Of a DNA stretch of 34,449 bases, positions 33-19,949 are shown one piece after another. The DNA lies in NCBI GenBank assembly GCA_018710835.1, contig DVJC01000022.1:1-34449 (forward strand). Reading direction: 5' to 3'. The translations under genes and the position numbers were made by a program. The notes beneath the pieces were generated by a model. The model searched no databases. It worked only from the letters and a program-made list of their open reading frames with translations, and was not told where the DNA came from. Each line of letters begins with the position of its first letter. The first letter of the stretch is position 1. Source of the stretch: Candidatus Limadaptatus stercoravium (lineage in GTDB: Bacteria; Bacillota; Clostridia; Christensenellales; CAG-917).

Positions 33-108
33 GGGGACCCCGTCGCAAAATCTTTGATTTTGTGATGGGGCTTCATTGGGGTCCCCGCCGAAAGTATTTT
101 CGGTGGGG
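33..108. repeat. Two adjacent GGGG-frame hairpins at the left window edge
   Basis: 38-70 CCCCGTCGCAAAATC-TTT-GATTTTGTGATGGGG (15-bp stem with G.T wobbles); 83-108 CCCCGCCGAAA-GTAT-TTTCGGTGGGG. Confidence 0.85.
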
Positions 109-326
109 TAAAAGGAGCAGCCGTGCGACAGATGAGCGGTGGCACTCTGCGCCTCCGCGTTAGGCAAGCACGCGCTGCGACGCAGTGGGGGAGGAAAGCC
201 CGAAGGGAAGGAGGGGGATTAATATTCCCAGCGGGACGTGAAGTTAATTCAGTATGAATTATACTTTTCTTAGGTAGCGAAAGAACGTCTAGCATTTTCG
301 CGACGCGCAAAGGAGCATCAAGGCAT

Positions 327-16457: not shown

Positions 16458-16487
16458 TAAAAAATCCGCATAATTCGGTTCCGGGTG

Positions 16488-16516
16488 TTGAAAATAAAAT
16501 TGACATATTATATAAT
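16488..16516 (+). promoter_or_regulatory. Sigma-A-type promoter
   Basis: TTGAAA (16488-16493), 17-bp spacer, TATAAT (16511-16516); an overlapping TTGACA lies at 16500-16505. Confidence 0.7.
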
Positions 16517-16571
16517 ATGCCGTGATAAAATAAGGCGGAAAGGAGATTTTTTCCGCGAACGAGGTGATCAT

Positions 16572-17093
16572 ATGGCAAAGAAAGTTCAATCTACGGTCAG
16601 CGTGAAGGACAACAGCGTCATGCTGTGCCTGCTGTTCATCGTGCTCGGCGTGCTGCTGGTGTGGAAAGAGAATGCGATCGTTGACATCGCAATGATGACA
16701 ATCGGCGTGATCGCCACGGTGCTCGGTCTTTTCGAACTCTTCCATCAGAACTGGATCATGGGAGTGATCGAAGTGATTGTAGGCGTGGCTCTGATTCTGA
16801 TCGCGGCACTTGCGTCGGATATCGTCGTGCTGATCCTCGGCATCGCGATCCTGTTGTTTGCGGTGCTTGTGTGCGTCATGGGCATCAAGAGTTTCAAAGG
16901 CATGGCGGCAGCGTCCAAAGTGCTGTTTATACTGACCATCGTGCTTGCGCTCGTGGTCGGTATCCTTCTCATCGTCGCATACGCGACCGGCGGAGAGTCC
17001 GCGCTCTACATTGCCACCGGCGCGATCAGCCTTGCCGTCGGCGTGGTGATGTTGGTGAAGGCGGCGCTCACCAGCGGCAGAAAAGCCGTCTAA
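16572..17093 (+). CDS. multi-pass membrane protein, DUF308/HdeD-like
   Basis: Repeated hydrophobic helices from MAKKVQSTVSVKDNSVMLCLLFIVLGVLLVWKENAIVDIAMMTIGVIATVLGLFELF; GAGGTGATC RBS region upstream. Confidence 0.65.
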   Translation: MAKKVQSTVSVKDNSVMLCLLFIVLGVLLVWKENAIVDIAMMTIGVIATVLGLFELFHQNWIMGVIEVIVGVALILIAALASDIVVLILGIAILLFAVLVCVMGIKSFKGMAAASKVLFILTIVLALVVGILLIVAYATGGESALYIATGAISLAVGVVMLVKAALTSGRKAV

Positions 17094-17122
17094 AACCGCG
17101 CTATTTGGCGTGATACTGCGTC

Positions 17123-17185
17123 AAAGCCCCTTCCGCAATGCGGTCACGTACGACTTAGTACACTCCCTTTTGCGGAAGGGGTTTT
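17123..17185. repeat. Stem-loop element 1 with conserved loop motif GTCACGTACGACTTAGTACACTCC
   Basis: Arms AAAGCCCCTTCCGCAA (17123-17138) and TTGCGGAAGGGGTTTT (17170-17185); loop motif 17143-17166. Confidence 0.8.
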
Positions 17186-17199
17186 CCTTGTCTGACGCT

Positions 17200-17215
17200 C
17201 AAATATCGCGGTTTT
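17200..17215. repeat. Short repeat CAAATATCGCGGTTTT, copy 1
   Basis: Identical 16-mer at 17502-17517. Confidence 0.75.
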
Positions 17216-17242
17216 ACGAACGACAGTTAAATAATCCGGGGT

Positions 17243-17276
17243 CCCCGCGGAAAATCCGTAAGGATTTTTCGTGGGG
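17243..17276. repeat. GGGGTCCCC-frame hairpin, copy a
   Basis: CCCCGCGGAAAATCC-GTAA-GGATTTTTCGTGGGG, preceded by CGGGGT. Confidence 0.85.
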
Positions 17277-17289
17277 TATAAACCGGGGT

Positions 17290-17315
17290 CCCCGCAAAAT
17301 GAACATTTTGTGGGG
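17290..17315. repeat. GGGGTCCCC-frame hairpin, copy b
   Basis: CCCCGCAAAATG-AA-CATTTTGTGGGG, preceded by CGGGGT, followed by ATAAA. Confidence 0.85.
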
Positions 17316-17329
17316 TATAAATCCGGGGT

Positions 17330-17363
17330 CCCCGCAACAATTTCCGTAGGAAATTTTGTGGGG
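17330..17363. repeat. GGGGTCCCC-frame hairpin, copy c
   Basis: CCCCGCAACAATTTCC-GTA-GGAAATTTTGTGGGG, preceded by CGGGGT. Confidence 0.85.
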
Positions 17364-17385
17364 TAGATTGGCGAATTGCTTTGTC

Positions 17386-17450
17386 AAGCGCCTGCGGTCT
17401 GAACAGTCACGTACGGTTTAGTACGCTCCTGTCCATCCGCAGGCGCTTTT
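17386..17450. repeat. Stem-loop element 2 with conserved loop motif GTCACGTACGGTTTAGTACGCTCC
   Basis: Arms AAGCGCCTGCGG (17386-17397) and CCGCAGGCGCTT (17437-17448); loop motif 17406-17429 matches element 1 at 21/24 positions while stems differ. Confidence 0.8.
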
Positions 17451-17463
17451 CGCGTCTTGGGGC

Positions 17464-17489
17464 CCCCACCGAAAGCATTTTCGGTGGGG
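17464..17489. repeat. GGGG-frame hairpin, copy d
   Basis: CCCCACCGAAA-GCAT-TTTCGGTGGGG. Confidence 0.8.
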
Positions 17490-17501
17490 CAAAACTTCAT
17501 C

Positions 17502-17517
17502 CAAATATCGCGGTTTT
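17502..17517. repeat. Short repeat CAAATATCGCGGTTTT, copy 2
   Basis: Identical 16-mer at 17200-17215. Confidence 0.75.
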
Positions 17518-17608
17518 TACACACGCTCGGTCGAAGACGGAATAAAAGCCTTTTGTCTTAACGCTCATTTATTCGAAGACGGAGCTACGCGCCGCTCAGC
17601 CAAAGGAG

Positions 17609-17640
17609 CCCCACAAAAATTCAAAGACTTTTTGTGGGGA
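17609..17640. repeat. GGGG-frame hairpin, inverted copy e
   Basis: CCCCACAAAAA...CTTTTTGTGGGGACCCCGG; on the reverse strand it reads CCGGGGTCCCCACAAAAAG... Confidence 0.8.
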
Positions 17641-17646
17641 CCCCGG

Positions 17647-17680
17647 ACTTGCACAGGCGGTGTAACCGCCTCTTGCAAGT
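17647..17680. repeat. Two-part nested hairpin with GTA loop
   Basis: ACTTGCA-c-AGGCGGT-GTA-ACCGCCT-ct-TGCAAGT. Confidence 0.7.
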
Positions 17681-17695
17681 CGCGGCGCGCAAAGT

Positions 17696-17801
17696 GAGTG
17701 CCGAACCGAAGGTCCAGCGATTGTTACGTGCGTTGCGCGTCAATCGCGTCGCACTAGACGTAACACTAAGTAGGCACGGGCGTAAATGTGCGAGTGCCGA
17801 A
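17696..17801. repeat. Structured segment flanked by 10-bp direct repeats GAGTGCCGAA
   Basis: GAGTGCCGAA at 17696-17705 and 17792-17801; internal GCGATTG/CAATCGC and TTACGT/ACGTAA pairings interleave. Confidence 0.55.
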
Positions 17802-17812
17802 TTCCTCCCCTC

Positions 17813-17844
17813 GGGGTCCCCGCCGAAAGTATTTTCGGCGGGGT
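17813..17844. repeat. GGGGTCCCC-frame hairpin, copy f
   Basis: GGGGTCCCCGCCGAAA-GTAT-TTTCGGCGGGGT, near-identical to the copy at 78-109. Confidence 0.85.
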
Positions 17845-18029
17845 GAATCGTGCAGGGATTTCAGTCAGTACCGTTCTCCACTTAATTATATAAGCGCGAT
17901 ATTAAAAGTTTTTGTAGAGGGAAAAAGTTAGTCCCGCATTTTGGGAGTGCGGTAGCTTATTCTGCACGGGGGAGGAAAGCCCGTAGGGAAGGCGGGGGTA
18001 ACAACATTCCCCACGGGACGCGAAGTAAT

Positions 18030-18305: not shown

Positions 18306-19856
18306 TCACTCCGTGACGCTGCGTATAAACCTGTCGAACCTGTCCTGACCGTCCTCGGTGTTCTTGAACACGGCGGTGGTGTCGAGGATCTTTTCGCAGG
18401 CGGTGTTGATGTAGTCGGTGATGGCGCGTTCCGCCGCTTCCTCGGACATATTCGTTCCGCCGTCGGCGACGAGCTGGGCGATCATGCCGAGATGTTTGTT
18501 GAGGGGATGTCCTTCCTTGGCTATCTCCTTGAAGTCGAGCGGAGTCTTGCCGGTGAGCAAGTCGCGGATCTGCTCGGATTCCCTTTGCAGTCTGCCGGGG
18601 AGGATGAACAGCCCCTGCACTTCGATGATGCCGATGGCTTCCTGTTTGATGTTGTGCAGTTCCTCGGCAGGGTGGAAGATGCCGTAGGGATGCTTTTCGT
18701 CCGTGCGGTTGTTGCGCAGGATGAGGTTGATCTGATACTCTCCGTCGTCGTTGAAGCAGGCGGTGGGAGTGATCGCGTTGTGGGGGGTGGAAGTGCCGTC
18801 CGCATTCTCGGTGCGGCAGATTATGTTCGCGCCTTCGTCGGAGTAGCCGCTCCATGCGCTGCGGAACCTTTCCGCCGCCTCAAGGATCTGGGCGCGGTTC
18901 TTGCTCTCCAGCCGTATTACGGAATTGTACCAGTCCGCGACGGAGACGTTCACGTCGGGGAAGTCCTTCATGAGGTAACGCTTGCGCGCGCCGGCGGCGA
19001 AGATGGGCAGCACTTTTTTACCGCCCTGATAGTGGTCGTGCGCGAGTATGGATCCGCCCACTATGGGCAGCGCGGCGTTGGAGCCGATGAAGTAGCCGGG
19101 GAAGAGATCCACAAAGTCGAGCATACGGCGGAATGTCGCGGCGGTCACGTTCATGGGGCGGTGTTCGCGCGCGACGGCAATGACGTGCTGTTCGAAGTAG
19201 ACGTAGGGAGAGAATTGCATGAACCACTTCTCGCCGTCCAGCTCGAAGGGTATGGTGCGCAGCGTCTGACGCGCGGGATGCGCCGCATTGCCCGCAAAGC
19301 CCACGTTCTCGGCGCAGAGCATGCACTTGGGATAGCCTGTCTTTGCCTCTTTTGCGCGCCTGACCTCTTCAGGCGTTTTTTCGGGCTTGGCGAGATTGAT
19401 TGTGATAATGATCTTGCCGCGCGGGTTGTCGTACTCCCACTGCACGTTGCGGTCGATGTCGGGACGGCGGATATACGCCGATTTTTCGGAAAGATCTTCG
19501 AGCCATTCGGCGGCTTTCATACTGCCGTCGTGCGCGGCGATGTTGTCGAAGGTCTCTATCACTTTGGAAGGAGCCGGCGTGAGCGCGCCCATAATGCGCG
19601 TCTCGAACAGCTGACGGTCGCTCTCTTCGCACAGGTTTTTCCGCACCGCGTATTCGGACAGCGCGGCGAGAGAGGAGTAGAAGTCGTACTTGTCCGCCGG
19701 CGCGTCCGCCGGTTCGGTAAGTCCGAGCATGTCAAGCAGCGTGTTGGTGGCGTAAACCACGTCCGCTTCGTCCATATGCAGGTTGTCGACAGCATAGTCG
19801 ACAAGGTTGGCGACATTGATCCTGGCTAGTTCTTCAAACGATTTGCGCGGAGACAT
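18306..19856 (-). CDS. galT: UDP-glucose--hexose-1-phosphate uridylyltransferase (class II GalT)
   Basis: GGSILAHDHYQGGKKVLPI, HPYGIFHPAEELHNIKQEAIGIIEVQGLFILPGRL. Start taken at MSPRKSFEEL (19856); ORF extends to 19877. Confidence 0.92.
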   Translation of the reverse strand: MSPRKSFEELARINVANLVDYAVDNLHMDEADVVYATNTLLDMLGLTEPADAPADKYDFYSSLAALSEYAVRKNLCEESDRQLFETRIMGALTPAPSKVIETFDNIAAHDGSMKAAEWLEDLSEKSAYIRRPDIDRNVQWEYDNPRGKIIITINLAKPEKTPEEVRRAKEAKTGYPKCMLCAENVGFAGNAAHPARQTLRTIPFELDGEKWFMQFSPYVYFEQHVIAVAREHRPMNVTAATFRRMLDFVDLFPGYFIGSNAALPIVGGSILAHDHYQGGKKVLPIFAAGARKRYLMKDFPDVNVSVADWYNSVIRLESKNRAQILEAAERFRSAWSGYSDEGANIICRTENADGTSTPHNAITPTACFNDDGEYQINLILRNNRTDEKHPYGIFHPAEELHNIKQEAIGIIEVQGLFILPGRLQRESEQIRDLLTGKTPLDFKEIAKEGHPLNKHLGMIAQLVADGGTNMSEEAAERAITDYINTACEKILDTTAVFKNTEDGQDRFDRFIRSVTE

Positions 19857-19949
19857 AAAACCCCTTAACACCCGCATTTCCCTTGCAAACGGAATAATGC
19901 TGTGCTATCATTAAAAATACTGTTTATATTATATATGGAGAAACAGACA

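Follow-up and report, generated by a model that had tools for sequence, protein, structure and literature searches.

Between a DUF308-like gene (16485-17093) and a galactose-1-phosphate uridylyltransferase gene on the opposite strand (18306-19877), and therefore in a convergent gap, a contig of Candidatus Limadaptatus stercoravium carries three short palindromes in a row that begin 145 bp downstream of the DUF308-like gene. The question that this locus raises is what kind of element they are and how they came to lie side by side. In the window, by which we mean the whole stretch of 34,449 nucleotides that was analyzed, the exact units and their common frame were located (Table 1). As the original prediction had claimed, there are three tandem hairpins with different inner stems, each matched by its own partner (with one bulged A in unit 3); every unit reads GGGGTCCCCGC-(own stem)-GTGGGGTA in identical orientation, successive units start 47 and 40 bp apart, the AT-rich linkers measure 8-9 bp, and the array ends at 17365 when the TA of unit 3 is included. 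Folded as single-stranded DNA, units 1, 2 and 3 each formed a single hairpin (-13.8, -9.4 and -11.6 kcal/mol; z-scores of -4.8, -3.3 and -4.3, respectively), and 0 of 200 shuffles folded equally well. Two further proposals were not supported by folding: the leading GGGG, suggested to let each unit switch between two folds, was unpaired in both the minimum-energy and the centroid folds of the isolated units, and the centroid of the whole array consisted of three separate hairpins rather than units chained with their neighbors. The shared orientation and a G.T pair in the foot CCCCGC/GTGGGG of all 3 units had been overlooked. Because this foot reads G.T on the top strand and A.C on the bottom strand, the top strand is predicted to fold 2.2-4.3 kcal/mol better. 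Searching the window against Rfam gave no match, and a tRNA search of the window found none.

Table 1. Frame hairpins and linkers of the window, and the frame hairpin found in a prophage. Positions are those of the window unless a locus is named.
Feature	Position	Strand	Description
Divergent unit	33..70	+	GGGGACCCCGTCGC...GTGATGGGG; head-to-tail with unit at 78..110
Single full-frame unit	78..110	+	CCGAAAGTATTTTCGG stem; near contig start
Hairpin unit 1	17238..17278	+	GGGGT tag, CCCCGC/GTGGGG foot, inner stem GGAAAATCC/GGATTTTTC, TA tail
AT-rich linker, units 1/2	17277..17284	+	TATAAACC, counted from unit 1 GGGG
Hairpin unit 2	17285..17317	+	frame as unit 1, inner stem AAAATG/CATTTT
AT-rich linker, units 2/3	17316..17324	+	TATAAATCC, counted from unit 2 GGGG
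Hairpin unit 3	17325..17365	+	frame as unit 1, inner stem AACAATTTCC/GGAAATTTT, one bulged A
Unit with GGGGCCCCC tag	17459..17489	+	in 3' arm of element-B palindrome; empty counterpart L045
Reverse-strand unit	17609..17644	-	inside larger intergenic repeat; empty counterparts L033, L035
Unit with foot repaired to G-C	17813..17843	+	CCGAAAGTATTTTCGG stem; inside another larger repeat; empty counterparts L035, L019
Prophage frame hairpin	L067 4285; L071 5012; L224-L226		

The array is not the only occurrence in the window, where the motif GGGGTCCCC[AG]N8-36[TC]GGGG matched 7 times in a scan of both strands, compared with 0 matches in 40 Markov shuffles. Other repeats lie around these units. Element B, at window 17091-17217 and 17366-17517, is a composite palindrome of 120-150 bp that directly follows stop codons; its outer and inner stems are variable yet paired, and its apex, C/TACGTACGnn(nn)AGTACG, is conserved. 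A regular expression for element B gave 29 matches (a few are not true copies), it occurs also in another genus (L158), a search against Rfam gave no match, and it resembles a structured 3'-end element or a terminator in its own right. At least 3 further dispersed intergenic repeat families (cores CGCGCCGCTCAGCCAAACTTGCAC, CTAGACGTAACATTAAGTAGACACGG and GTCCCGCATTTTGGGAG), seen at window 17590-17700 and 17740-17860, host frame hairpins.

Copies of the unit are dispersed over the genome, as expected by the original prediction, and are not confined to the array locus: in the 1.31 Mb metagenome-assembled genome (MAG), the strict pattern GGGGTCCCCGC-N3-30-GTGGGGTA gave 28 matches and a looser pattern 108, with 0 and 8 matches, respectively, for the reversed-pattern controls. 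Certain stem cassettes recur (CCGAAAGTATTTTCGG, AAAATGTACATTTT, GGAAAATCCGTAAGGATTTTTC, AACAATTTCCGTAGGAAATTTT and others) and are mixed inside arrays. Among close neighbors (within 20 bp), 66 of 69 pairs are head-to-tail, with linkers mostly of 7-10 bp and of the type TA-W-rich-TC, alike in Clostridia and WOR-3 arrays. Since adjacent units usually differ in stem, simple tandem duplication does not explain the arrays. Only 9 of 110 units fall inside called genes (the gene calls being uncurated), and the intergenic gaps that hold units are convergent in 26 cases, co-directional in 31 and divergent in 1. Relative to the upstream gene, 18 units have the same and 29 the opposite orientation, which is no clear bias, and this mixture argues against an RNA switch. 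Altogether, a DNA-level element fits the arrays and the gene context better than an RNA element does. Units or arrays were also seen less than ~500 bp from the starts of contigs C2, C6, C16, C26, C50, C79, C83, C87 and C89 and from the ends of C24, C59, C69 and C93. The MAGs are incomplete and many arrays lie at contig ends; the assembly is therefore probably broken by the repeats, and there are probably more copies than were counted.

We then analyzed which parts of the unit are constant. When the step after CCCC was left unspecified, GC/GT was found in 49 of 72 copies in this genome, AC/GT in 4 and GC/GC in 2; the G.T mismatch is therefore conserved and does not come from the way the pattern was written. 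In a WOR-3/Stahlbacteria genome (G106), stems were compared among 96 distinct 38-mers with at most 1 frame mismatch. The 23 inner bases were only 49% shared on average, and stem positions 11-18 formed Watson-Crick pairs in 67-97% of the copies, compared with 27-53% when partners were shuffled. Directly above CCCC/GGGG, the first pair was G.T in 69%, A-T in 25% and G-C in 4%, and the loop was mostly CGAAG-like. Pairing was likewise retained in other copies: with 4-nt arms, own partners scored 3.30 and swapped arms 2.58 in the window genome, and 3.52 and 1.94, respectively, at other loci. An invariant frame below a variable but paired upper stem argues that the frame is read as sequence and the upper stem as structure. 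The fixed ends and stem base suggest, as far as the sequences go, an enzyme that would read the foot of the hairpin only.

The same frame was found in 26 of 100 relatives, with 1 to 92 copies each and 0 in the controls; stems differ between species, and members of the family range from 0 to 92 copies. Class-wide it was present in 5 of 391 genomes. Scanning 84,980 species genomes gave at least 110 stretches with the frame, nearly all with self-complementary arms, and among the matches listed were Clostridia, Stahlbacteria/WOR-3, Gemmatimonadota, Chloroflexi, Acidobacteria, Actinomycetota, Thermus and Sphingomonas. Single matches in five GC-rich genomes (L069, L113, L118, L119 and L148), the arms of which are not well paired, were set aside as chance. 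With the inner bases free, 51 and 38 copies were found in two WOR-3 genomes (G102 and G106), 21 in a member of the Gemmatimonadota (G103) and 22 in one of the Oscillospiraceae (G129), with controls of 0-1; with the length fixed at 38 and at most 2 mismatches, G106 gave 137 and G102 169 matches (controls 9 and 7, respectively). In the Stahlbacteria genome, one loose frame is found per ~16 kb. A 48-mer of this Clostridia MAG (G000:C59:33565-33612) is identical at 47 of 48 positions to one in a Propionibacteriaceae MAG (G107:C16:161520-161567), a similarity that suggests horizontal transfer. In addition, a frame hairpin lies at a constant position in a prophage common to Thermoanaerobacter, Thermoanaerobacterium and three viral contigs.

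To look for sites with and without the unit, the flanks of each copy or array were joined and searched by BLAST in the own genome and in genus-mates. A match spanning the junction (for example AACG^CTTGGG) was obtained for 40 flank-joined sites, and most of these matches are hairpin-free counterparts. Clean cases are CCTTCCGCA[CA-hairpin-GTAAAA]ATGCGGTC, the empty form of which reads CCTTCCGCA^ATGCGGTC; TTTTCGCG[TCTT-hairpin-CAAA]ACTTCATCC at window 17459; and CTGTGAACG-CTT[hairpin-CTCC]CTT-GGG. The net gain at filled sites is ~37-44 bp, near the array period of 40-47 bp, and the hairpins interrupt at least 4 larger intergenic repeat families at differing positions. Target duplication is inconsistent, one pair fitting a 3-bp CTT and others replacing 1-4 bases. 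Set against the symmetric terminal inverted repeats and constant target duplication of a MITE moved by a DDE transposase, most units are asymmetric (5' GGGGT, 3' TA), a few are symmetric, and one site may carry a CTT duplication. Where the window has its triple array after the DUF308 gene, the orthologous locus of another genome (G004) consists of a bare element B with no unit, and that of a further one (G008) carries a single unit next to a second element B. By parsimony, we infer that the filled sites are probably insertions and not losses at the empty ones.

These observations bear on the possibility that the hairpins are host-functional sites (for protein binding, replication or the nucleoid, RNA processing or termination) that are selected copy by copy. 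Such selection would agree with the WOR-3 copies, each of which has its own stem but the same frame, length and loop, and with the location of the units mostly between genes and in convergent gaps. However, the frame is patchy to absent in sister species, units sit inside other repeats, and the one orthologous locus examined varies from an array here to one unit in G008 and none in G004. The hairpin is not followed by a T-run and shows no clear preference for one orientation with respect to the upstream gene, and on these grounds a terminator was rejected. We consider host function an unlikely explanation of the family.

An inserted element would raise the question of the enzyme that moves it. 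The original prediction had proposed looking for a cognate RAYT/TnpA-like transposase, and PF01797 searches of the own genome, relatives and 30 frame-bearing genomes, together with a scan of the flanks of Y1 loci, found none. REPtron-like flanking, with the frame on both sides, occurred at 0 of the ~40 Y1 loci scanned, and RAYT was rejected as the cognate enzyme on the basis of these searches. At two Y1 loci (L194 and L202) a single frame lies 0.4-0.5 kb away; both cases were judged chance, there being no second copy and loose frames being common. Beyond household genes, no protein recurred beside frames across genomes. The sole Y1_Tnp gene of this genome (L010 8759-9520) encodes a TIRYT-like protein of 253 aa with a C-terminal helix-turn-helix. 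At its locus (L010 8625-9600, contig C92 of this MAG) the flanking hairpins have outer arms that differ by species, and the gene adjoins an acyl-CoA synthetase-like gene here and apparently also in several genus-mates.

Could the frame be the REP/TIR substrate of this resident TIRYT-type Y1 transposase, as in REPtrons and TIRtrons? In the genus of the window, no genome with 13 or more copies lacks a TIRYT-type gene; family-wide, a Y1 match goes with at least 5 frame copies (9/19 versus 3/24, p = 0.017, uncorrected for phylogeny); and GGGGAC is common to the TIRYT repeats and the bottom strand of the frame. GGGGWSAS repeats are a known trait of subclass 2.1/TIRYT (PMC6006769, PMC3733652), and the frame resembles these in its G-run motif, its palindromic copies and its presence in the same genome. 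In contrast, the hairpins on either side of the TIRYT gene are GGGGACGGGG inverted double hairpins of its own and the frame is not near it, orthologues in the genus have related GGGGACG hairpins, and the frame, which reads GGGGTCCC, does not fit the A of WSAS. Moreover, the PF01797 search gave no Y1 match in 10 of 19 frame-rich family members, including G024 (99% complete, 44 copies) and G035 (92 copies). That this enzyme moves the frame is thus quite improbable.

Template switching can yield compensatory changes without selection. The least probable account is that no dedicated enzyme exists and that the hairpins arise and stay perfect through replication template switching or a triplex instability like that of BoxC/PIT repeats, which are likewise widespread, GC-rich, intergenic and without known transposase (PMC4666352); the GGGG of an array hairpin and that of the next unit could in principle stack antiparallel, but this account leaves unexplained both the same 19-base frame and G.T foot in several phyla and the unit-length, insertion-like junctions. 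BoxC, moreover, consists of three homopurine/pyrimidine tracts (CCCTCNCCC N3-6 GGGNGAGGG N3 GGGNGAGGG; PMC4666352), a pattern that fits none of the frame copies examined, in which the upper stem is free and stands on a single G4/C4 foot.

Among known systems, the frame is closest in kind to REP, REPIN and BIME repeats with TnpA-REP (RAYT) and their GTAG and CGTC super-families (PMC3733652, PMC8266576), which are likewise short intergenic palindromes in high copy number. It has the form of a REP (a 20-65 nt palindrome, many copies, extragenic) and shares with REPs the unpaired 5' tag, the stem mismatch, the tolerance of upper-stem changes and the enrichment at the 3' sides of genes. It is set apart within the REP kind because its tag in the window genome and in other phyla is GGGGT instead of GTAG/GTGG or CGTC, because no RAYT flanked by the repeat was found among the Y1 loci scanned, and because its copies form head-to-tail tandems (66/69) and not the alternating or head-to-head dimers of REPIN/BIME. 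As a rule, a REP family holds its stem constant, and the families differ from species to species; the stems of the frame are far more variable, and one frame is common to several phyla. attC sites and IS200/IS605 ends are also folded single-strand substrates with constant ends and a variable interior, but the frame lacks attC core motifs, gene cassettes and a TnpA flanked by frame ends. Among the relevant papers listed, none prints GGGGTCCCC, and no REP class that matches the frame turned up.

What was observed, namely a constant frame with a G.T foot, upper stems that vary but still pair, copies scattered over the genome and patchy among relatives, sites with and without the unit, and arrays, is best explained, with a probability that we put at about 60%, by a short mobile element of the REP kind that is non-autonomous, is folded from a single strand, carries a GGGGT tag and a hairpin foot, and is moved in trans. 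TnpA-REP requires a tag on the 5' side, portions of the lower stem and a region of mispairing, but accepts changes in the upper stem (PMC8266576), and by analogy with this recognition pattern the element probably works like a REP. We infer single-stranded recognition and a candidate recombinase. One DNA strand of an element of ~31-48 nt, plus ~8 nt of flank, would fold into a hairpin, and a trans-acting recombinase would recognize the unpaired 5' GGGGT, the foot CCCC-R/T-GGGG with its G.T mismatch and the 3' T-purine tail, irrespective of which bases make up the loop and the upper stem. Fresh copies would go into intergenic DNA and other repeats, in many cases right next to one already present and in the same orientation, which would give rise to head-to-tail arrays with 7-10 bp AT-rich linkers. 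More tentatively, and at somewhat less than even odds, the element may belong to a third class of REP-like tag (GGGGT; foot-only recognition with a G.T mismatch; head-to-tail accretion) that a single-strand recombinase outside the known Y1_Tnp family has carried into several phyla.

One tag and foot are thus common to several phyla, and nearly every copy in one genome has its own paired stem. These variable stems amount to a natural experiment on binding specificity, separating the bases that an enzyme must read from those it ignores. Since the frame is short and specific, co-occurrence can be used to look for the missing enzyme, and the element offers a direct test of whether REP-like repeats spread without a RAYT.
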